A stretch of DNA of 64,000 bases, taken from the NCBI GenBank assembly GCA_002354655.1, contig DELY01000001.1:20662-84661 (forward strand). The letters are read 5' to 3'. Source of the DNA: Pseudomonas sp. UBA2684 (GTDB taxonomy: Bacteria > Pseudomonadota > Gammaproteobacteria > Pseudomonadales > Pseudomonadaceae). Shown one piece after another: positions 15,203 through 26,722 of this stretch. The notes below the pieces were generated by a model. That model made no database searches. It saw nothing but the letters and a program-made list of their open reading frames with translations, and had not been told where the DNA came from. How positions within the stretch are numbered: the first letter of the stretch is position 1; each line of letters opens with the position of its first letter. The translations under genes and the position numbers were made by a program.

Positions 15203-16261
15203 CTAATGCACGGCCCCCAACAACGGTTTACGCAGCTCGTTGGCCCAGTCCGTTAGCGGCACCTCTATCGTGGGCTGCCAAATACGCGTCCACAGCACCG
15301 TCAAGCGCTCCAGGTCGCCGCGCTCCATCGGCCAGCGCTGGATGTCCTGCTGCACCTGCCAGGCGCCATTTTGCCAATGGGCGAAGTCGAAACGGAACGG
15401 GTGAAAACCGGTCATGCCCAGGCGCAGGTCGGTGACCACCAGATGCTCGCCGATGCGGTCGTAGCGCAACACCCCGTTGGTGAACCAGGCCAGCCGGGCA
15501 TGCGCCGGCGAATCCGCCAGAGTGCTGGCCAGCGCCGTGCCGCGGGCAATCCGCTCGAGTTGCGGCGGGTCCTGGTCGAACCAGCCCACCAGCGTTTCAT
15601 GGTAATCCTCGCCGTCCAGCACGATCACCCGCCACAGCAGGCTGTTGAACGGTGTCGGTGTGGTGAACAGCGCTTCGGCCTGAATGCCCTGGCGCGCCAG
15701 CTGCGCTTCCACGCGGTGCTCGGCCATGTATTTGCCGGCCACCGTGAAGCCCAGATAGAGCGTCGACAGGACCAGCGCGATAGCCGGCGCCTTGGCCGCT
15801 TTATCGCGCAGCCCGAACCATGCCCCGGCCACTACGGCGGCGATCAACGGCAGCGTGTAGAGCGGGTCGATGATAAAGATGCTCGACCAGGCGGTGGGGA
15901 TCGGCATCAGCGGCCAGAACAACTGGGTGCCGTAGCTGGTGAAGCTGTCGAGTAACGGGTGGGTGAGCAAGACCAGAAAGAGGGTGAGGAACAGGCGCTG
16001 CGTCGAATAACCGGGGTGCGGGCGAAAATGCCGGGTCAGCCAAGTCAACAACAGCGCCACCGCGCTGAGCACGAACAGCGAATGACTGAAGCCGCGGTGG
16101 TAGGTCATCTCCGCTACGGCATCGCCGTAATCGATCACCACATCCAGGTCAGGCAGGGTGCCGAGCATGGCGCCATACAGCAGCGCCTTGCGCCCTTGCC
16201 AGCGGCCGAGCAGCGCGCCCTGGATAGTGGCGCCGAGCACGGCCTGGGTAATCGAATCCAT
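15203..16261 (-). CDS. YdjM-like inner-membrane metal-dependent hydrolase
   Basis: A 352-residue protein of the COG1988/DUF457 family. The N-terminus MDSITQAVLGATIQGALLG, then GTLPDLDVVIDYGD and TYHRGFSHSLF carry the conserved Asp and His residues proposed to bind metal (D-x-D and H-R-x-x-x-H). Four or more hydrophobic segments follow (for example PLIAAVVAGAWFGLR), then a soluble C-terminal half. Members are membrane proteins of unproven function, and some are LexA-regulated in Escherichia coli; I see no LexA box here. It is monocistronic, convergent with the chemoreceptor. Confidence 0.88.
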   Translation of the reverse strand: MDSITQAVLGATIQGALLGRWQGRKALLYGAMLGTLPDLDVVIDYGDAVAEMTYHRGFSHSLFVLSAVALLLTWLTRHFRPHPGYSTQRLFLTLFLVLLTHPLLDSFTSYGTQLFWPLMPIPTAWSSIFIIDPLYTLPLIAAVVAGAWFGLRDKAAKAPAIALVLSTLYLGFTVAGKYMAEHRVEAQLARQGIQAEALFTTPTPFNSLLWRVIVLDGEDYHETLVGWFDQDPPQLERIARGTALASTLADSPAHARLAWFTNGVLRYDRIGEHLVVTDLRLGMTGFHPFRFDFAHWQNGAWQVQQDIQRWPMERGDLERLTVLWTRIWQPTIEVPLTDWANELRKPLLGAVH

Positions 16262-16342: not shown

Positions 16343-17374
16343 TCAGGTAACCCACGCTTCGCCGATTGGCGATGGCGCCGGCGCAATGCCCGCCGCGCGC
16401 GATGACAGACGCAGGCGTTCCAACGCTTCGTAGGGCTCGCGGGCCCAGCGCTCGACGGCTGCCTGCACTTCGGCGCTGGCGCCGTCGCGTTTGCGCTGGC
16501 TGTCGGCGATGAAGTGCAGGCTCGGCTGTTTGGCATCGTAATGGGCGAGTGTCTGCACGTGCGCGACGTCGCGTGCGCGGACATCGAACAGCGGCGCCAG
16601 GCGGCCCCAGACGGCATCCGGCAACTCCCGGTAATTCACCGGCACGCCGCCATGCTCTCGGCATTGCGCCAAGCCCTGCTGGAGAATCTTGCCGATGCTG
16701 CGGGCGGCGAACTCCAGCGGCGACAGCTGCGCTGCCTCTGCCGCGCAGACATCCAGCGGCGATGGGCCGAGCATTCCCGGCACGGTATGCGCGCCGGGTT
16801 GGCGCAGTTGTGAGACGACGATCTCCAGCGGGTCGCGGTAAAGAAATATCCACGGAGTGGTGGGGTAGAGGCGCTGCAGCACGTCCGCTTCGAAGATGTT
16901 CCAGGCGTCGAGCTTGACCACCAGGCCCTCTTCGCTGCCGCGGCGCACCTGGGCAAAGGCCGAGAGCAGGGCGCGCAGCCAGTCGGCCTGCTGCGCGGGT
17001 GCTACTGGATCGATGAGGTGTGCGCGCAACAGGCTGTCCAGCGGTGGCGGTTCGGAGAGCACGATATGCCGGTCGATGCCGGCCAGCAGTTGTGCGATCA
17101 GCGTCGAACCGCAGCGCGAGGCGTGGTAGATAAAGGCGCGCGGCGCCACGCCTGGGCTGGCGTGGTGCCAGTCGAGCAGGCTGGCGAGCGGGGTATTGCG
17201 GCGCAGGGCCTGGTTGAAGGGCAGGCGCATGGCCTGCTGCACGCTGTCGCGGTAGAACGGCCGGTTCAGCGGCATGTCGCCGAACCAGCACCAGTCCACT
17301 CGCCATTCGCCGTGCTCGGGCCATACGCGGATCGGCAGCCATTGCTGCAAGTCATCGGTCATCACACTGTCCAT
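16343..17374 (-). CDS. sulfotransferase family protein
   Basis: A 343-residue protein with the PAPS-dependent sulfotransferase core. The 5'-phosphosulfate loop is YHASRCGSTLIAQLLAG (Ser-Arg-Cys-Gly-Ser-Thr, about 86-91). The 3'-phosphate motif is IFLYRDPLEIVVSQLR (about 175-190), and a tail motif is KRDGASAEVQ. Residues 1-75 form an extra N-terminal part (VWPEHGEWRVDWCWFGDMPLN) of unknown role. It overlaps the hydroxylase-like gene upstream: an internal ATG at 17362 forms a TGATG with that gene's stop, so MTDDLQQW may be the true N-terminus instead of MDSVM. The substrate is unknown. An APS-kinase-like gene lies divergently 1 kb away and could feed it with PAPS. Confidence 0.82.
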   Translation of the reverse strand: MDSVMTDDLQQWLPIRVWPEHGEWRVDWCWFGDMPLNRPFYRDSVQQAMRLPFNQALRRNTPLASLLDWHHASPGVAPRAFIYHASRCGSTLIAQLLAGIDRHIVLSEPPPLDSLLRAHLIDPVAPAQQADWLRALLSAFAQVRRGSEEGLVVKLDAWNIFEADVLQRLYPTTPWIFLYRDPLEIVVSQLRQPGAHTVPGMLGPSPLDVCAAEAAQLSPLEFAARSIGKILQQGLAQCREHGGVPVNYRELPDAVWGRLAPLFDVRARDVAHVQTLAHYDAKQPSLHFIADSQRKRDGASAEVQAAVERWAREPYEALERLRLSSRAAGIAPAPSPIGEAWVT

Positions 17375-18174
17375 TGTTCGCTCCAGGCGCGTCGGCCCTG
17401 GCGCATGGCCGATCGCACATCGTCGATGGCGAAGTGCAAGTCGAGCTGCGCGCCGAGCTGGACGGCACGCTCGGCAAACTCGCGCGCATTCTCAAGGCGA
17501 TTGAGTTGCCCAGCCAGCAGGGTGTCGGCATGCACGCGTTGGCGAAAGCGATTGAACGCCAGGGTCGAGCGGGCTATTTGCGCAGCGGGAGTCGTGGCCA
17601 GGCCCGCGCTGATCTGTGCGCGTAGCCAGTCGTTGCGGCGGGCGTCGATCACCAGATGAATACGTGCCTGCTCGCTGCGGTTGTCCACACGGTGCGGGCG
17701 CGCCAGGTCGAGAAACCAGCATTCGCCCACGGCCATGGGGATCACCTGGCCCTCCAGGAGAAACTCCACCGCCGGGTGGCTGCGGATCGGGATATGCAGG
17801 CGCACATCGCCTTGCGGGTCGCTCAGGTCGGGGTCGCAGTGCTCGCTGATGTGCGCGCCCGCGCCCAGGCGCAGCAGGCGCGCGCTGCTGATGCGCATGG
17901 CGATGCCTGCGAGTACCTGCTGCCACCGTGCGCTGTGCCAAGGCGTGGCATGCGTGTCAGTGCTATCGCCGCCGTGGGCGGCCGCCAGCGGATCATGCGC
18001 TCCAGCGGGGCTAAGCAAGGCGACGCCGCTCCAGTCGCCACGGTAGTAATCGGTATTGAAGTGCGCGCTCCAGGCGGCATCGGGTATGGCCTGCAATGCC
18101 GCCTGCAACAGCGCGACATCGACGCGCAGGGGCAGGCGGGCGTATGCGGGTAGCGCAGAGTGGCTGGGCGTCAT
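17362..18174 (-). CDS. aspartyl/asparaginyl beta-hydroxylase domain protein
   Basis: A 270-residue protein whose central part matches the Asp_Arg_Hydrox fold, an Fe(II)/2-oxoglutarate jelly roll. ISEHCDPDLSDP gives the His-x-Asp-like pair, DVRLHIPIRSHP is typical of the family, and ECWFLDLARPHRVDNRSEQ carries the second iron His and, downstream, the Arg (ARIHLVID) that usually binds 2-oxoglutarate. The C-terminal 70 residues are helical and unassigned. An ATG at 18204 would add ten residues; neither start has a strong ribosome site. It is translationally coupled to the sulfotransferase (overlap 17362-17374), so the two enzymes probably act on the same product: hydroxylation that could provide the acceptor for sulfation. 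That order is inference. Confidence 0.8.
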   Translation of the reverse strand: MTPSHSALPAYARLPLRVDVALLQAALQAIPDAAWSAHFNTDYYRGDWSGVALLSPAGAHDPLAAAHGGDSTDTHATPWHSARWQQVLAGIAMRISSARLLRLGAGAHISEHCDPDLSDPQGDVRLHIPIRSHPAVEFLLEGQVIPMAVGECWFLDLARPHRVDNRSEQARIHLVIDARRNDWLRAQISAGLATTPAAQIARSTLAFNRFRQRVHADTLLAGQLNRLENAREFAERAVQLGAQLDLHFAIDDVRSAMRQGRRAWSEQWTV

Positions 18175-18352
18175 GCGGACTCGACTCGCTGTGGGCGGCC
18201 GCATCCGTTGTCAGCCGCGCTGGGCTCATTCTAGTGGCCTGTGTGGTTTGTTCAATGAGTCGATGTCGGCGTCTGTGGCCTTGTACTGCGGCTGGCCAGC
18301 CTCGCCCGCGCCTGCTACAAAAGCGCATCCGTTTAGCCGAGGAGTGCCTGGG

Positions 18353-18964
18353 ATGGCGAGTCACACGCATGTCGCTGCGGCCGAGGCCGTGACGCAAGGT
18401 CAGCGCGTGCAGCGCAATGGCCACGGCGCAGCCGTGTTGCTGCTGACCGGTTTGTCCGGAGCGGGGAAAACTACCCTGGCCCAGGGGCTCGCGCGGCGCC
18501 TGTTCGACCTGGGCGTGCACAGCTATGTGCTGGACGGCGATACGTTGCGTGGCGGCCTGAATGCCGATCTGGGTTTCAGTGCGCAGGATCGTCGGGAAAA
18601 CCTGCGGCGCAGCGCCGAGGCCGCCGGCTTGCTGGCCGACTCCGGTGCCATCGTGATTGCCGCGCTGATTGCGCCGTTGGCCGCATCGCGGGTGTATTGG
18701 CGCCAGCGGCTTGGGGCGAACTTTTTCGAGGTCTGGTGCAGCGCCGCGCTGCCGGTTTGCGAGGCGCGTGACGTTAAGGGCTTGTACGCCCGCGCACGGG
18801 CCGGCGAGATAGCCGATTTCACCGGTGTCTCGGCACCCTACGAAGCGCCGCAGCAGGCCGACGTGGTGATCGACAGCGCGCGCCAGAGCGTCGAGGAAAG
18901 CGTCGAGCTGCTTGTGCAACTGCTGCGCCAGCGCGGGGTGCTGACGAATGCCGCGCACGGCTGA
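18353..18964 (+). CDS. cysC: adenylylsulfate (APS) kinase-like protein
   Basis: A 203-residue P-loop kinase. Walker A is GLSGAGKTT (about 36-44), followed by VLDGDTLRGGLNADLGFS, DRRENLRRSAEAAG, ARDVKGLYARARAGEIADFTG and YEAPQQAD, all typical of CysC, which phosphorylates APS to PAPS. Two departures are seen against the E. coli enzyme as I recall it: the DGDNVRHGL box reads DGDTLRGGL, and the Ser of AFISP, phosphorylated in E. coli, is Ala here (ALIAP). The start at 18353 follows GAGGAG. It faces the hydroxylase/sulfotransferase pair across a 178-bp gap and is followed by arfB. No CysD/CysN gene is nearby, so it is not part of a full sulfate-activation operon here. Confidence 0.88.
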   Translation: MASHTHVAAAEAVTQGQRVQRNGHGAAVLLLTGLSGAGKTTLAQGLARRLFDLGVHSYVLDGDTLRGGLNADLGFSAQDRRENLRRSAEAAGLLADSGAIVIAALIAPLAASRVYWRQRLGANFFEVWCSAALPVCEARDVKGLYARARAGEIADFTGVSAPYEAPQQADVVIDSARQSVEESVELLVQLLRQRGVLTNAAHG

Positions 18965-19009: not shown

Positions 19010-19423
19010 ATGCTGGTGATTTCCAATAGCATCCATCTACCGGACGATGAGGTCGAGTTGACCGCCATCCGCGCCCAGGGCGCGGGTGGGCAGAACGTCA
19101 ACAAGGTGTCCAGCGCGGTGCACCTGCGTTTCGACAGTCAGGCCTCATCCTTGCCGCCGTTCTACAAGGAACGCCTGCTGGCGCTACGCGACAGCCGCAT
19201 CACCGTAGACGGTGTGGTGATCATCAAAGCCCAGCAATACCGCACCCAGGAGCAGAACCGCGCGGATGCCCTGGAGCGCTTGGCCGAGCTGATTCGCAGC
19301 GCCGGCAAGACCGAAAAAGCCCGGCGCCCGACTAAGCCGACCCTGGGCTCGAAAAAGCGCCGCCTGGAAGGCAAGAGCAAGCGCGGAACGATCAAGGCCG
19401 GGCGCGGCAAGGTGGATTTCTAA
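19010..19423 (+). CDS. arfB: alternative ribosome-rescue factor ArfB (YaeJ)
   Basis: A 137-residue release-factor homologue. The catalytic GGQ motif is in QGAGGQNVNKVSSAVHLRFD (about residues 24-43), and no codon-recognition domain is present. The basic C-terminal tail (TEKARRPTKPTLGSKKRRLE to the end) enters the mRNA channel of stalled ribosomes in the known structures. It hydrolyses peptidyl-tRNA on non-stop complexes. It starts 45 bp after cysC. The following 66 bp contain no clear terminator before a long repeat begins. Confidence 0.95.
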   Translation: MLVISNSIHLPDDEVELTAIRAQGAGGQNVNKVSSAVHLRFDSQASSLPPFYKERLLALRDSRITVDGVVIIKAQQYRTQEQNRADALERLAELIRSAGKTEKARRPTKPTLGSKKRRLEGKSKRGTIKAGRGKVDF

Positions 19424-19824: not shown

Positions 19825-20709
19825 ATGAAAACGACCCTCGATGAACTGCAAGCCTTTGTCCACGTGGTCGACAGTGGTTCGATCAGCGCCGCTGCCGAGC
19901 AGTTGGCGCAGACCGCTTCCGGCGTCAGCCGCGCGCTTAGCCGGCTGGAAGACAAGCTCGATGTCACCTTGTTGCGCCGCACTACCCGGCGCCTGGAGCT
20001 GACCGAGGAGGGCCAGGCCTTTCTTGCCCAGGCGCGCAAGATTCTCGCGGCGGTCGAGGATGCCGAGGAGCAGATCAAGGTGCGCCGGCAGAAGCCCGCC
20101 GGACGCCTGCGGGTCAACGCCGCCGCGCCATTCATGCTGCACGCCGTGGTGCCGCTGGTGGCCGGTTTTCGTGCGCAGTACCCGGATATCCAGCTGGAGT
20201 TGCACAGCAGCGACCAGATCATCGACCTGCTCGAACAGCGCGCCGATGTCGCCATCCGCATCGGCCCGCTGCGCGATTCCACCCTGCACGCGCGCCCGCT
20301 GGGCAGCAATCGCCTGCGCATTCTCGCCAGCCCGGCCTACCTCAAGGCCCACGGCACGCCGAAAACGGTGGCCGATCTGGCCCAGCACAGCCTGCTCGGT
20401 TTCACCCAGCCCGACAGCCTCAACCAGTGGCCGCTGCGTCATCCCCTGGGCGACGCGCTGAGCATCAGCCCCAGCCTGTGCGCCTCCAGCGGCGAAACCC
20501 TGCGCCAATTGGCCCTGGCCGACGTCGGCATCGTCTGCCTGGCGGACTTCATGACCCAGGCCGACCGCGCCCGCGGCGACCTGGTGCAGTTGCTGCTGCG
20601 CGACACCGTCGAGGTGCGTCAGCCGATCCATGCGGTGTACTACCGCAACACCGCGCTGGCCTCGCGCATTACCTGCTTTCTCGACTACCTGAGTGCTCAG
20701 CTTCGCTAA
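19825..20709 (+). CDS. LysR-type transcriptional regulator
   Basis: A 294-residue regulator with an N-terminal winged helix ([42 protein letters not shown]) and a LysR substrate-binding domain from about residue 90 ([20 protein letters not shown]). No LysR target gene is divergent from it: the upstream 400 bp is mostly repeat, and it converges with cusA. Its final 41 bp overlap the 3' end of cusA on the other strand. The target and inducer are unknown. Confidence 0.92.
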
Positions 20710-23700
20710 CCGGGCGAGCCAGTGAGGCGGCTTGCCGCCTGCAGGCCGGGCGGCGCAGCAGGCTGAACAGCGCCGGAATCACCAGCAGCGAGAGCAGCGG
20801 GGCGGTGATCATGCCGCCGACCATGGGCGCGGCGATGCGGCTCATCACCTCGCTGCCGGAGCCGCTGCCCCAGAGAATTGGCAACAAACCGGCGATGATC
20901 ACCGCCACCGTCATGGCTTTGGGCCGTACGCGTTGCACCGCGCCCTCGCGGATGGCATCGAGCAATGCGGGCTCGTCGTGCTGCCCGGCGTCCTGGCGGG
21001 CGCGCCAGGCGTTTTTCAGGTACAGCAGCATGATCACGCCGAACTCGGCGGCCACGCCGGCCAGGGCGATAAAGCCGACGCCGGTGGCCACCGACAGGTT
21101 GTAGCCCAGCAGGTAGAGGAACCACACCCCGCCAGTGAGGGCGAACGGCAGCGTGAGCATGATCAACATGGCTTCGTCGAAGCGGGCGAAGGTCAGGTAG
21201 AGCAGCACGAAGATGATCAGCACGGTGGCCGGCACCAGCAGTTTCAGCCGCGCGTTGGCGCGTTCGAGGAATTCGAACTGCCCCGAGTAGCTCAGGCTCA
21301 TGCCGGGTTGCAGGGTGACCTGCTCGCCAATCGCCACGCGCAGGTCGGCGACCACCGAGGCCAGGTCGCGGCCGCGCACGTCGATATAGACCCAGCCGGA
21401 AGGCCGGGCGTTCTCGCTCTTGAGCATCGGCGGGCCATCGCTGACGCTGATCCGCGCTACGCTGCCGAGGGTGATCTGGCTGCCCAGCGGGGTGTAGATC
21501 GGCAGGTGTTCCAGGGCGCCCAGCGAGTCGCGCCACTCGCGCGGGTAACGCAGGTTTATCGGGTAGCGCGCCAGGCCTTCGATGGTTTCACCGATATTCT
21601 CGCCGCCGATGGCGCCGGCGACGATCGACTGCACGTCGGCGATATTCAGGCCGTAGCGCGCCGCCGCCTGGCGGTCGATGTCGACATCGATATAACGCCC
21701 GCCAGTCAGGCGTTCGGCGAGCGCCGAACTCACCCCCGGCACCTGCTTGGCCGCCCGCTCGACCGCCTGCGTCACCGCGTCGATGTGCGTCAGGTTACTG
21801 CCGGCCACCTTGATCCCGATCGGGCTCTTGATCCCGGTGGCGAGCATGTCGATACGGTTGCGGATCGGCGGTATCCAGATATTGCTCAGCCCCGGCACCT
21901 GCACCGTCCGGTCCAGTTCCTCCACCAGCTTTTCCGGGGTCATGCCGGGGCGCCATTGCGCGCGCGGCTTGAACTGGATGGTGGTTTCGAACATCTCCAG
22001 CGGTGCCGGGTCGGTGGCGGTTTCGGCGCGTCCGGCCTTGCCGAACACGTGTTCGACTTCCGGCAGGGTCTTGATCAGGCGGTCGGTCTGTTGCAGCAAC
22101 TGCGCGGCTTTCTGCGCCGACAGCCCGGGCAGGGCCGACGGCATGTAGAGCAGGTCGCCTTCGTCGAGTGGCGGCAGAAACTCGCCGCCGAGGCGCGAGA
22201 TCGGCCACAGCGCGCTGAGGAACACCAGCACGGCGATCAGCAGGGTGACTTTCGGCCGGCGCAGCACCGCGTCGAGGGCCGGCTGATAGAGACGGATCAG
22301 CCAGCGGTTCAGCGGATTGCTGTGCTCGTTCGGTATGCGCCCGCGAATCCAGTAGCCCATCAACACCGGCACCAGGGTCACCGATAAGCCGGCGGCGGCG
22401 GCCATAGCATAGGTCTTGGTAAACGCCAGCGGGCCGAACAGCCGACCTTCCTGGGCTTGCAGGGTGAACACCGGGATAAACGACAGGGTGATGATCAGTA
22501 GGCAGAAGAACAATGCCGGGCCGACTTCCACCGCCGCCGCCGTGATCACCTGCCAGTGTTGCTCGCCTTTTAGCTCTTGGCCCGGATGTGCGGCGTGCCA
22601 GGCTTCGAGCTTCTTGTGGGCGTTTTCGATCATCACCACGGCGGCGTCGACCATGGCGCCGATGGCGATGGCGATGCCGCCGAGGGACATGATGTTGGCG
22701 TTGATGCCTTGCTGCTGCATGACGACAAAGGCGATCAGCACGCCAATCGGCAGCGAGATGATCGCCACCAACGAGGAGCGCAGATGCCAGAGAAACACCG
22801 CGCAAACCAGCGCCACGACGATGAATTCTTCGAGCAATTTGAAGCTGAGGTTGCTGACCGCGCGATCGATCAGCTTGCTGCGGTCGTAGGTGGTGACGAT
22901 TTCCACGCCGGCCGGCAGGCTGCTTTTCAGCTCGTCGAGCTTGGCTTTCACCGCGGCAATGGTGGCGCTGGCGTTCTTGCCGCTGCGCAGAATCACCACG
23001 CCGCCGACCACTTCGCCTTCGCCATCCAACTCGGCGAGGCCGCGACGCATTTCCGGGCCGAGCTGGATCGTCGCGACATCGCCGAGGGTCACCGGCACGC
23101 CGTCTTCGCTCAGCTTGAGCACAATTGCGCGGAAGTCATTCAGGGTCTTCAGGTAGCCGGAGGCGCGCAGCATGTACTCGCTTTCCGCCAGTTCCAGCAC
23201 GGCGCCACCGGTTTCCTGGTTGGCCTGGCCAATCGCCGCGATGACCTCGGCCTGGGTGATCTTCAGGCTGGCCAGGCGGAACGGGTCGATCAGCACCTGG
23301 TATTGCTTGACCATGCCGCCGACGGTCGCCACCTCCGCGACATCGCTCAGGGTTTTCAGCTCGAACTTGAGAAACCAGTCTTGCAGCGCGCGCAACTGCG
23401 CCAGGTCATGGGTGCCGCTGCGGTCGACCAGGGCGTACTGGTAAATCCAGCCGACGCCGGTGGCATCCGGCCCGAGTGCCGGCTTGGCGCCAGCGGGCAG
23501 GCGGCTCTGCACCTGGCTGAGGTATTCCAGCACGCGCGAGCGCGCCCAGTAGAGGTCGGTGCCGTCCTCGAACAGCACATAGACGAAGCTGTCGCCGAAA
23601 AAGGAAAAGCCGCGCACCGTCTGCGCGCCGGGCACCGAGAGCATGGTGGTGGCCAGTGGGTAGGTGACCTGGTTCTCGACGATTTGCGGCGCCTGGCCAG

Positions 23701-23860
23701 GGTAGGGCGTGCGGATGATTACCTGCACGTCGGAGAGGTCCGGCAGGGCATCGATGGGGGTGTTCTGCACCGACCAGACGCCCCAGGCCGTGGCCAGTAG
23801 CGTGACCAGCAGCACCAGCATGCGGTTGAGTACCGACCAGCGAATCAGCGCGGCGATCAT
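20669..23860 (-). CDS. cusA: CusA-type heavy-metal RND efflux pump
   Basis: A 1063-residue inner-membrane RND transporter. The N-terminus ([20 protein letters not shown], then [20 protein letters not shown]) is typical of the heavy-metal (HME) branch and closest to CusA, the Cu(I)/Ag(I) pump. Transmembrane residues of the proton relay are visible in [19 protein letters not shown]. Periplasmic loops carry several Met residues, but I did not map the Met triad exactly. It overlaps cusB by 4 bp and is the last gene of the leftward cus set. The C-terminal tail ([20 protein letters not shown]) is basic and overlaps the LysR gene. Metal choice between copper/silver and others rests on the CusB partner. 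Confidence 0.92.
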
Positions 23861-25341
23861 GGCTGCTGCTCCAGTTTGTCCAGGCGCTCGACCAGCAGTC
23901 CGTCGTCGCTCTCGCGCACGCCCACGCGCACCGCATCGCCGGGCTCGATACCGATCGCCAGGGCGGGGTCGGCCAGGGTAAAGCTCATGGTCATGCCGGG
24001 CATGCCCAGGGTCTTGAACGGGCCGTGGGCCAGGGTCAGCGAGGCATTGTCGATGGCCACGACCTGACCGTCGGCCTCATGCAGGGCCGCTTGCACCGGC
24101 GCGGCCGGCGGTGTTGCCAGGCCTTGCGCGAGCAGGCCGCGCAGGCTGGCTTCGGAATCGAGCAGGAACTGTCCGGAGGCGACCACCTGCTGGCCTTCTT
24201 CGAGGCCTTGCAGCACTTCGGTCTGGCCCTCGGCCTCGCGACCCAGGCGCACCTCGACGGGCCGATAACGCCCGGCACCTTCGCCAAGCATCACCAGGGC
24301 GCGGCGCCCGGTGCGGATCACCGCCTCGCTGGGAATGAACAGGGTGGCTTGCGCGGCCGGGCGCTGCAGCCGCACCTGCGCGGTCAAGCCTGGGCGCAGG
24401 CGGCCGTCGGGGTTGTCCAGCTCGACCCGCAGGCGCAGCGTGCGGCTATTCGGCTCGGCCGCTGGGAGAATGGCGCCGACCTTGCCCGTCAGCACCTCGC
24501 CGGGGAATGCCGGCAGGCGCGCCTCGACCGGCTGTCCGCCGCGCAACCCGGCGGCTTCGGCCTCAGGCACCGCCACCTCCAGCCAGACGCTACGCAGGCC
24601 GTTGATGGTCGCCAGTGGCGCGCCGGCGGCGAGGGTCATGCCCTGGCGCACGTTGAGCTCTTGCAGCACGCCAGCGATTGGGCTGGTGACCGTCCACAGC
24701 GCTTGGCTCTTGCCGCTGCGCTCGACCTGCGCGATCAGCGCGGGCGGCATCCCGCTCAGGCGCAAACGCTGACGTGCCGCCGCCAGCAACGCCGGTTCGC
24801 CGAGCTGGCGCAGGGCCAGGAACTCCTCCTGGGCCGCCACCCATTGCGGCACGAGCAGGTCGGCCAGCGGTGCGCCAGCGGCGAGCAGGTCGTTCGGCGC
24901 GAGGGCGTAGACCCGCTCGACGAAGCCGCCACTGCGCGCCTGCACGATGGCCATGTCGCGCGCATTGAACGCCAGGCTGCCAACCGCCTCCAGGCTGCTG
25001 GGCGGCATGCCGCGGGTGACCGTGGCCAGGCGCATGCCGAGGTTCTGGCTGACGCTCGGGTCGATGCTCAGCACCGCGCTGTCGCCGCCGGCACCGGCAT
25101 AGCGCGGCACCAGTTGCATGTCCATAAAGGGCGATTGTCCGGGTTGGTCGAATCGTTGCTGCGGGTACATCGGGTCGTACCAATACAACACCTCGCCGCG
25201 ATCCGCTGTGGCGCTGGCCTGTTGCGTGGCGGGTGCGGGCATCGCGTCGCTCCGCGGCTGGGCGAGCCAGTAGCCGCCGGCAGCGCTGAGGACTAGCGAG
25301 ATGCCCGCCAGCAGGGCGCCTTGGTAGATTCGCGGGTTCAT
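23857..25341 (-). CDS. cusB: CusB-type periplasmic adaptor with fused CusF-like domain
   Basis: A 494-residue membrane-fusion protein. After an N-terminal anchor ([17 protein letters not shown]) comes the CusB metal-binding segment [20 protein letters not shown] with MDMQLVP, as in E. coli CusB. Lipoyl/barrel-sandwich and beta-barrel adaptor domains follow ([40 protein letters not shown]). The last 80 residues form a CusF-like OB domain: His439 (LAHGPF) and GMPGMTMSF with Met450 and Met452 correspond to the CusF copper ligands, with Met447 at the position of its Trp44. A fused chaperone domain would hand Cu(I) or Ag(I) to the adaptor and pump. It overlaps cusC and cusA by 4 bp each. Confidence 0.93.
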
Positions 25342-26600
25342 TGAGCGCTCTCCCCGTAAGTGAAATACAACGCGGTGCCGACCTGGGCGCGCTGCCCTTG
25401 CAGGTCGATCTGTCTTAGCCGCGCGTCGATCAGCTCGCGGCGCGCGACCAGCACATCGGCCAGCGCGCCGTTACCGGCGCGGTAGCCGGCAAGGCTCAGC
25501 GTTACTTTTTCCTCGGCCAAGGGCAGCAGCAGTTCCTCGCTGCGGCGAACCGCGCGGCTCAGGCGGGCGTATTCGCCCAGATCGCTGTGCTGCGCCTGGG
25601 CATATTCGCGCTCCAGCGCCTCGCGCTCGGCTTCAAGCCGTGCGACCTGGGCGTATTGCGCGGCAATCTTCGGATCTTGGCGGGAGCCGGGGAAAATCGG
25701 CAGGTCGATGCTGAACTGCACGCTGAGCATGTCGCCGAATTCGCGGCCGCGCCGCTGGTAATCCAGCTCCCAGCTCCAGTCGGGGCGCTTGTCGGCCAGT
25801 GCTTGGCGCACGCCCGCCGCCGCCTCTTGCTGCATCGGCGTGTAGGCGGCCAGCTCGGGGTGGCGCCGCAGGTTGTGCGGGTAGCGTGCTGCGGCTATCG
25901 GCCAATCCGGCAAGCCACCGGCCAGCGGCGCGTTGCCGGCCTCGCCGATCCAGCGTCTGAGCGCGGCGCGCGCCACCTCGCGGGATTGCATCAGTTGGTC
26001 TTCCTGCTCGGCCAGTTGCGCGGCCTCCTGCCTGGGGGCGATGCTGTCGGCAGCCTGGCCGAGACCTGCGCCGAGCTGGGCGCGCACGGCGTCGTGCAAC
26101 AGCCGGTTCTCCTGGTACAGCGTGCTGAACAGCTGCAGTTTGCGTTCGACGCTGTAGGTGGCGATCCACGCCAGCGCGGTGTCGCGGCGCACCTTGAGCG
26201 CTTCCACCTGGCGCTCGGCCTCGGCTCGATCAACCGCCGCCTGGGCGACCTCGACCCGCGCGCGGCGCTTGGCGCGGTTGGGTACTTCCTGCATGACGCC
26301 GACCATCTGCATGGTCATGAAGTCGTCGTCGAGGCTGCCGCGCTCGGGGCCGCCAATCGGGAAATTTTGCACCCCGAGTAGCAGCTTCGGATCGGGTAGC
26401 TCGCCGGCCGAAACGGCCAGGTGACTTGCCGCAGCAAGCCGGGCGCTTTGCGCGGCCAGCGAGGGCGCCTGGCGTTCGGCCAGGTTCAAGGCGTCTTCCA
26501 GGCTGAGTGAGGCTGCCAGGCTGGGCAGTGCCAACAGGCTGACGGCTGTGGCGAGTGCCAGCCGCCGCCAGCGGTGATCGCGAGAGGAAATCATGCGCAT
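25338..26600 (-). CDS. cusC: CusC/TolC-type outer-membrane efflux protein
   Basis: About 420 residues from the ATG at 26600, which has CAGGAC upstream; a start at 26684 would add 28 basic residues and spoil the signal peptide (LALATAVSLLALPSLAAS). The outer-membrane-factor domain is repeated (LSLEDALNLAERQAPSLAAQ at the N-terminus, LSRAVRRSEELLLPLAEEKV near the C-terminus), giving long coiled-coil helices. It should form the outer-membrane exit duct for CusBA. There is no lipobox Cys, unlike E. coli CusC. It overlaps cusB by 4 bp and follows a Cys-rich small gene by 122 bp. Confidence 0.88.
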   Translation of the reverse strand: MRMISSRDHRWRRLALATAVSLLALPSLAASLSLEDALNLAERQAPSLAAQSARLAAASHLAVSAGELPDPKLLLGVQNFPIGGPERGSLDDDFMTMQMVGVMQEVPNRAKRRARVEVAQAAVDRAEAERQVEALKVRRDTALAWIATYSVERKLQLFSTLYQENRLLHDAVRAQLGAGLGQAADSIAPRQEAAQLAEQEDQLMQSREVARAALRRWIGEAGNAPLAGGLPDWPIAAARYPHNLRRHPELAAYTPMQQEAAAGVRQALADKRPDWSWELDYQRRGREFGDMLSVQFSIDLPIFPGSRQDPKIAAQYAQVARLEAEREALEREYAQAQHSDLGEYARLSRAVRRSEELLLPLAEEKVTLSLAGYRAGNGALADVLVARRELIDARLRQIDLQGQRAQVGTALYFTYGESAQ

Positions 26601-26722
26601 GAGTCCTGTGAATAGCCGGCGTGGGCGAAGCAATCGCACACGCATACGCGCCACCCCAGGCAAAGCCGCTAAATGTTGGGCCAAACCGTTAAATAAGGGT
26701 GGGAGTCAGTGTCGAACAGGAA

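Follow-up and report, generated by a model that had tools for sequence, protein, structure and literature searches.

A stretch of 64,000 nucleotides from Pseudomonas sp. UBA2684 (the window), part of contig C43 in a genome of 4.83 Mb and 59 contigs, contains three neighbouring genes: an Fe(II)/2-oxoglutarate hydroxylase (HYD), a sulfotransferase (ST) dependent on 3'-phosphoadenosine 5'-phosphosulfate (PAPS) and a stand-alone adenosine 5'-phosphosulfate (APS) kinase (CysC). On balance, we favour the view that they represent an accessory cytoplasmic hydroxylation-sulfation module with an optional PAPS supply, acting on an exported surface protein of a giant-protein system marked by the domain DUF4347. 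The features of the trio are as follows.

17362..18174, minus strand: HYD, Fe(II)/2-oxoglutarate hydroxylase of the Asp_Arg_Hydrox family (PF05118), 270 aa
16343..17362, minus strand: ST, PAPS-dependent sulfotransferase (PF13469), 339 aa; its start overlaps the HYD stop
18353..18964, plus strand: CysC, stand-alone APS kinase, 203 aa, ATG at 18353, divergent from HYD-ST
18175..18352: intergenic region between the divergent CysC and HYD-ST, 178 bp with the HYD start at 18174
17365..17592, minus strand: Nif11-like helical domain at the HYD C-terminus (about residues 205-280 in the 280-aa numbering)

All three genes are intact and lie where a preliminary description, made from the letters of this DNA alone, had placed them. 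The hydroxylase it reported was borne out by the motifs EHCDPD and PHRVDN and by a PF05118 match of 49.9 bits (cut-off 22.6, E = 4.1e-13), and the sulfotransferase by the motifs SRCGSTL and LYRDPLE and a PF13469 match of 27.6 bits, narrowly above the cut-off of 27. The described overlap of the two genes is read as TGATG at 17364-17360, with one base common to the HYD stop and the ST start, and the APS kinase indeed faces the pair at 178 bp if HYD starts at 18174. Alternative upstream ATG codons would extend HYD to 280 aa (ATG at 18204) and ST to 343 aa (ATG at 17374). CysC scored 203.2 bits against TIGR00455 (cut-off 138.7; the longer frame from 18056 was scored) and 185 bits against PF01583.

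Hydroxylase and sulfotransferase genes form a conserved pair

HYD was found in 93 of the 398 genomes of our genus sample (threshold E <= 1e-20). About 20 kb around HYD were examined in 92 genomes, the window included, and neighbours were mapped by tblastn and frame scans; one HYD-positive genome (G058) was left outside this set with a locus of only 3.8 kb. Several loci were cut at contig ends or at the 20-kb limit (in L186 the sequence reaches only 1.5 kb beyond the TolC gene), so that absences are to be read as lower bounds, and one tally (17 of 57) includes weak family matches. ST was located on the same strand and within 100 bp of HYD in all 92 loci. The two genes were likewise adjacent in 80 of 80 loci of a second collection, which overlaps the first. 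The closest relative of the window HYD in the sample (G309) is 75 % identical. In one further locus HYD has decayed to short pieces (L191:13841-14125); no ST was detected beside these remains, and the giant-protein gene, a second sulfotransferase (ST2), TolC and CysC are kept.

Outside the genus, both domains can be encoded in one frame. Diaphorobacter sp. HDW4B has a HYD-sulfotransferase fusion of 630 aa (PF05118 at residues 69-167, PF13469 at 348-570), which adjoins a divergent IPTL-CTERM protein, Asticcacaulis has an apparent fusion in an in-frame open reading frame (ORF) of 596 aa, and L288 has a fused frame with a weak sulfotransferase part (E = 1e-4). The sulfotransferase parts in Diaphorobacter and Asticcacaulis were missed by the ST profile and therefore belong to other branches of the family.

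Chance neighbourhood was rejected in view of the complete adjacency in the genus and of the fusions. Strict adjacency, fusions elsewhere and the decayed HYD without a detected ST argue together for a shared function. The shared pathway of the preliminary description thus stands as far as HYD and ST work jointly, but a common target hydroxyl remains its conjectural part. A tblastn search, made against plasmids and not against phages, returned 13 records, in each of which less than 80 % of HYD was covered. In one locus the genes directly after the pair (L068:10937-14461) encode an asparagine synthase and a protein in which GNAT and RimK-like ATP-grasp domains are joined.

The pair mostly resides in clusters encoding giant DUF4347 proteins

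DUF4347 (PF14252) was detected in 171 of the 398 genomes of the genus sample, and all 93 HYD-positive genomes were DUF4347-positive (hypergeometric P = 2e-43 at this base rate, not corrected for shared ancestry). Taking as a giant a frame of at least 1000 aa rich in D, N, G, S and T, or a LEPR motif, we found one in the flank of 81 of the 92 HYD loci; in 86, at least one of giant, TolC and M50-HlyD protein adjoined the pair. The preliminary description had seen no substrate or export gene nearby, and this does not carry over to the relatives, most of which have the pair inside a giant DUF4347 cluster with HlyD, M50 and TolC components. DUF4347 was confirmed with Pfam in six giants individually, besides the genus-wide search, and was located near the N-terminus in all six, three of which are complete frames. 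Two of them had Big_12 Ig-like repeats and two had PATR repeats; cadherin-like matches were seen in three giants, in two cases below the family cut-off.

Two layouts can be distinguished. In layout A the order is ST2, giant, TolC, CysC (where present), HYD and ST; in layout B it is HlyD, GAF-HlyD, M50-HlyD, HYD, ST, GNAT, DUF6916, collar-domain protein and giant. The M50-HlyD fusion is an unusual exporter component. One such protein (L092:7122-9218), an M50 peptidase fused to HlyD parts, also matches the model of the daptide intramembrane metalloprotease, below its cut-off. No ABC domain was found in seven scanned cluster proteins, and the genome was not searched for one. Judging by the open-licence literature, the DUF4347 cluster seems little studied.

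Six loci have neither a giant nor TolC or M50 proteins nearby (the window, G309, G353, G097, G340 and G151), and all come from DUF4347-positive genomes. They are not independent, because the five that were placed in the HYD tree represent two lineages within the genus. The genome of the window strain yielded one LEPR-motif match and one collar match, both on contig C58, where HlyD, GAF-HlyD, M50-HlyD, GNAT, DUF6916 and collar genes are followed by a giant (DUF4347, PATR and the start of Big_12) that runs off the contig end. On contig C24, the C-terminal end portion of a giant-like frame is immediately followed by TolC. The strain's own giant gene is probably split by the assembly, with its start (the N-terminal part) on C58 and its end (the C-terminal part) on C24. 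ST2 was looked for in this genome and not found.

The strain's own cluster therefore has layout B without HYD-ST at the usual place. In P. lopnurensis (L204) CysC is divergent from HYD-ST and the three genes lie inside the exporter/giant cluster; the HYD of this locus belongs to the clade next to the window HYD (support 100/95 for the 5-row set). Since the own cluster equals layout B minus the pair, and L204 has the divergent arrangement within its cluster, the trio appears to have moved away from the giant cluster in the lineage of the window.

CysC follows the sulfotransferases

Of the 92 loci, 35 had CysC at most 300 bp from HYD and 37 had it somewhere in the flank (34 on the same strand, three divergent); no CysC was found within the available flank of the other 55. 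Missing co-occurrence of the three genes in related genomes, which the preliminary description had named as telling against its reading, was thus not observed. Its proposal that the module makes its own PAPS holds in so far as CysC is linked to sulfotransferases, but the kinase is optional. Twenty HYD-less DUF4347 loci, picked by us from the 78 DUF4347-positive, HYD-negative genomes, were also examined. While CysC was present in eight of the nine with ST2, it was found in none of the 11 without a detected sulfotransferase (Fisher P = 7e-5); it therefore follows the sulfotransferases and not the giant as such.

No cysD/cysN partner adjoins CysC, as had been noted, and the strain has a bifunctional CysN/CysC on contig C44 (1005.6 bits, cut-off 715). 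Its presence elsewhere in the genome would account for the dispensability of a local CysC. In a phmmer search the window CysC matched the CysN/CysC 4bzp (E = 3.3e-45), with the P-loop and the KGLYARARAGEI motif aligned. A role of CysC in general sulfate assimilation is unlikely, as a full CysN/CysC is encoded elsewhere and CysC tracks the sulfotransferases in the 20 HYD-less loci.

The nine HYD-less loci with ST2 and a giant, eight of them with CysC, imply that sulfation there needs no HYD. They would suit an arrangement in which both enzymes modify the same exported protein at different residues, HYD acting on Asp, Asn or Pro and ST sulfating tyrosine as RaxST does on RaxX. RaxST-RaxX exemplifies tyrosine sulfation in bacteria, the target being a secreted peptide that is encoded together with components of an exporter (PMC6637879). 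However, in a phylum-level sample of 398 genomes the ST search matched 10, all 10 with HYD in the same locus, and together with the HYD-sulfotransferase fusions this fits consecutive steps better than independent tyrosine sulfation. The tyrosine content of giants was 0.95-1.91 % in clusters with sulfotransferases compared to 1.35-2.54 % in 10 clusters without, ranges that overlap and are confounded by lineage. We regard modification at separate residues as unlikely, though worth keeping in mind.

Conserved residues and related structures

The residues H122, D124, H171 and R181 of HYD (280-aa numbering), which we take to be the iron ligands and the 2-oxoglutarate-binding Arg, were invariant in 46 aligned sequences, and PF05118 was matched by all 46 at E <= 1. 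In ST, the SRCGST motif and R87, S90, E108, R180 and S188 (343-aa numbering) were invariant in 40 sequences; PF13469 was matched by all 40 aligned orthologues at E <= 1. Loss of the iron ligands or of the PAPS loop, the second observation that the preliminary description had named as speaking against it, was not seen in these alignments. A published account describes sulfotransferases by a basic residue of one PAPS motif, a Ser of the other and a His or Glu base between them (PMC6637879). By their position in the motifs, R87, S188 and E108 of ST would take these roles. AlphaFold2 models reached a mean predicted local distance difference test (pLDDT) score of 93.1 for HYD and 93.0 for ST.

Among its solved relatives, HYD came closest to L-proline cis-4-hydroxylase (E = 2.9e-19), followed by a chain that was deposited under the name 'proline oxidase' (E = 2.2e-8) and is presumably a proline 3-hydroxylase; the ST profile gave only a weak match to solved structures (E = 0.15). 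These relatives, as well as the TonB-receptor genes adjoining HYD outside the genus, would agree with an action of HYD and ST on a small molecule (a free amino acid, lipid or sugar), resulting in a sulfated metabolite or in a sulfated glycan attached to or associated with the giant. When the ORFs of 20 loci were clustered, however, the annotated recurrent neighbours were the giant system and unrelated flanking genes; the later neighbour maps followed named clusters only, and a gene for small-molecule synthesis could have escaped them. A small-molecule substrate therefore seems to us decidedly unlikely.

The Nif11-like domain and its possible docking role

In the HYD model the C-terminus is helical (helices at 212-279). 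PF07862 matched 33 of the 46 aligned HYDs at E <= 1 (best 8.5e-8), the window HYD not being matched when taken alone, and positions 200-255 of the HYD A1 profile matched PDB 9zn4, a 'Nif11 domain-containing protein' (E = 4e-4). Of 100 HYDs, 92 were matched by a profile of the HYD C-terminus, which had been built from 40 of them. In three loci with short HYDs (L103, L104 and L105) this profile matched the N-terminus of ST instead (E = 2.1e-5, 1.5e-3 and 1.4e-4, respectively). The occurrence of the domain on either enzyme suggests that it may serve a docking task shared by both.

This placing of the domain, C-terminal in the HYDs of Pseudomonas and N-terminal in the STs of these three loci, could also be expected if the pair matured a small peptide of the kind of ribosomally synthesized and post-translationally modified peptides (RiPPs), recognised via the Nif11-like domains, with the giant cluster as its exporter. 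Neighbours in L105 (one asparagine synthase-like protein, one HPr-kinase-like protein and an extra sulfotransferase), an HPr-kinase-like neighbour in L103 and the below-cut-off resemblance of the M50 protein to the daptide metalloprotease model point in this direction. Yet Nif11 is fused here to an enzyme and not to a peptide, and no recurrent small gene was seen, ORFs under 80-90 aa not having been listed systematically. We consider a RiPP-like substrate very improbable.

Proposed mechanism and search for the target site

For the hydroxylation-sulfation module we infer a protein substrate, its export by this machinery, the residues, the order of the steps, the effect at the surface and the docking role as follows. 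HYD would hydroxylate residues, likely Asp or Asn and possibly Pro, of a still-unfolded exported protein, which would be the giant repeat protein or the collar-domain protein that accompanies it. The new hydroxyl would next receive sulfate through ST, CysC topping up the donor PAPS, and the modified protein would exit via the HlyD/M50/TolC machinery and carry additional negative charge on the outside. Docking on the substrate or on the exporter may be the task of the Nif11-like domain of HYD. PAPS and 2-oxoglutarate are cytoplasmic, and the enzymes should therefore act before export. The giant or the collar protein would be the likeliest target, because the giant and its export genes are the constant companion of the pair in the genus, and proline is a possible one, because the nearest solved HYD relatives are proline hydroxylases. 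In its most specific form, the proposal is that a mobile HYD-ST(-CysC) module serves an M50/HlyD/TolC export system and O-sulfates the hydroxyl made by HYD on ribosomally made giants, both in Pseudomonas and in further proteobacteria; in this form it is tentative and may well prove too narrow.

Several observations weigh against a module dedicated to exported DUF4347 proteins. A modification site was not found. Big_12, the commonest repeat, was rejected as an obligatory target, since the complete giants of the HYD-positive loci L107 and L108 have no Pfam match to it; none was found in the available giant parts of L204 and L249 either, and HYD-less giants carry Big_12 as well. A purpose-built Big_12 profile was made from four repeats of one giant and missed the Pfam-found Big_12 in the strain's own giant, so that its results are lower bounds. 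Aligned collars, 21 from HYD-positive and two from ST2 loci, showed no obvious common site; the alignment is without an ST-less comparison, as no collar of the 11 ST-less loci passed the filter.

Within the genus, 78 of the 171 DUF4347 genomes are without HYD, and the module is therefore dispensable. The co-occurrence statistic ignores shared ancestry, and the 20 HYD-less loci were our own choice. In the window strain itself the trio is not beside a giant, HYD-ST being on a different contig from the giant's cluster. The closest solved relatives of HYD are proline hydroxylases, enzymes that act on free proline.

Outside the genus the picture is looser. The HYD search at phylum level matched 19 of the 398 genomes; of the nine that the ST search had not matched, only L288 gave a hit with the ST profile, the weak fused one. 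Among 21 non-genus loci, a collar gene was present in eight (L103, L104, L105, L107, L108, L109, L285 and L291), a giant of more than 2000 aa in four (L107, L108, L285 and L291) and neither in 13. The strand of HYD is opposite to that of ST in L103, L105 and L106, whilst a distance of some kb separates the two genes in L104 and L109. The collar/giant link extends past the genus, yet it is far from universal there.

Some of these loci have further features. In L103 and L105 (proteobacteria, family f64) the pair is accompanied by HPr-kinase-like proteins, GNAT and three collar genes, to which L105 adds a further sulfotransferase and an asparagine synthase-like protein; the mix of genes is lasso-like. 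A second context of HYD, with adjoining TonB-receptor genes, was seen in L283, where these genes were annotated, and in L296, L289 and L290, where they were judged by sequence. Besides these, L283 encodes a TPR-sulfotransferase, a Sulfotransfer_2 protein and another HYD of short length. DUF4915 (PF16261) occurs near HYD in two distant bacteria (L109:10376-11533 and L284:11875-12972).

Relation to described systems

The nearest described logic is that of RaxX-RaxST-RaxA-RaxB of Xanthomonas. There, RaxX of Xanthomonas oryzae is a precursor of 60 residues that is Tyr-sulfated before exporter processing, PAPS is provided by housekeeping genes and RaxAB is a type I secretion complex (PMC6637879). 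Both systems encode a PAPS-dependent sulfotransferase with a secreted substrate (putative here), export components and a TolC channel. The present one differs by its dedicated hydroxylase, optional APS kinase and giant protein, and by having no ABC transporter among the seven scanned cluster proteins. No RaxX-like short precursor recurred among ORFs of at least 80-90 aa; smaller ORFs were not listed systematically and RaxX itself was not searched for.

Type I secretion of giant adhesins is represented by LapA-LapBCE. Like this system, the DUF4347 clusters have a giant repeat protein, HlyD-type adaptors and a TolC-like outer-membrane protein; unlike it, they have the M50-HlyD fusion, an N-terminus of LEPR...FDG type and a collar partner, and no ABC protein among those scanned. 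PF05118 includes AspH, LpxO and OlsC, AspH being without the Asp ligand. HYD shares with enzymes of PF05118 the Pfam family and the conserved His/Asp/His and Arg, but has a Nif11-like C-terminal domain and a sulfotransferase partner, and L-proline cis-4-hydroxylase as its nearest solved structure. The window kinase resembles CysC and CysN/CysC enzymes in its TIGR00455 score and its aligned P-loop and active-site motifs. It differs in its place, with sulfotransferases and not with cysD/cysN, the bifunctional CysN/CysC being encoded elsewhere.

Protein sulfation has rarely been described in bacteria, and RaxX was the only such system to surface in the open-licence literature searched. No description of HYD-ST pairing or of coupled hydroxylation and sulfation was found in that literature, and a published one may exist. 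If the proposal is true, sulfated bacterial surfaces would be common, given a module in 93 of 398 genomes that is linked to presumably surface-exposed giants, and a modification function would be attached to the DUF4347 cluster. Adhesion, calcium binding and host or phage recognition might be affected. The candidate substrates are now few and named.

Neighbouring genes in the window

A scan with Pfam and NCBIfam identified the neighbours of the trio.

15203-16261, minus strand: YdjM-family protein
19010-19423, plus strand: ArfB

Further along the window, three consecutive ORFs of 1063, 494 and 448 aa (20669-26684, minus strand) resemble a heavy-metal efflux system of the resistance-nodulation-division (RND) type, as judged by sequence and size.

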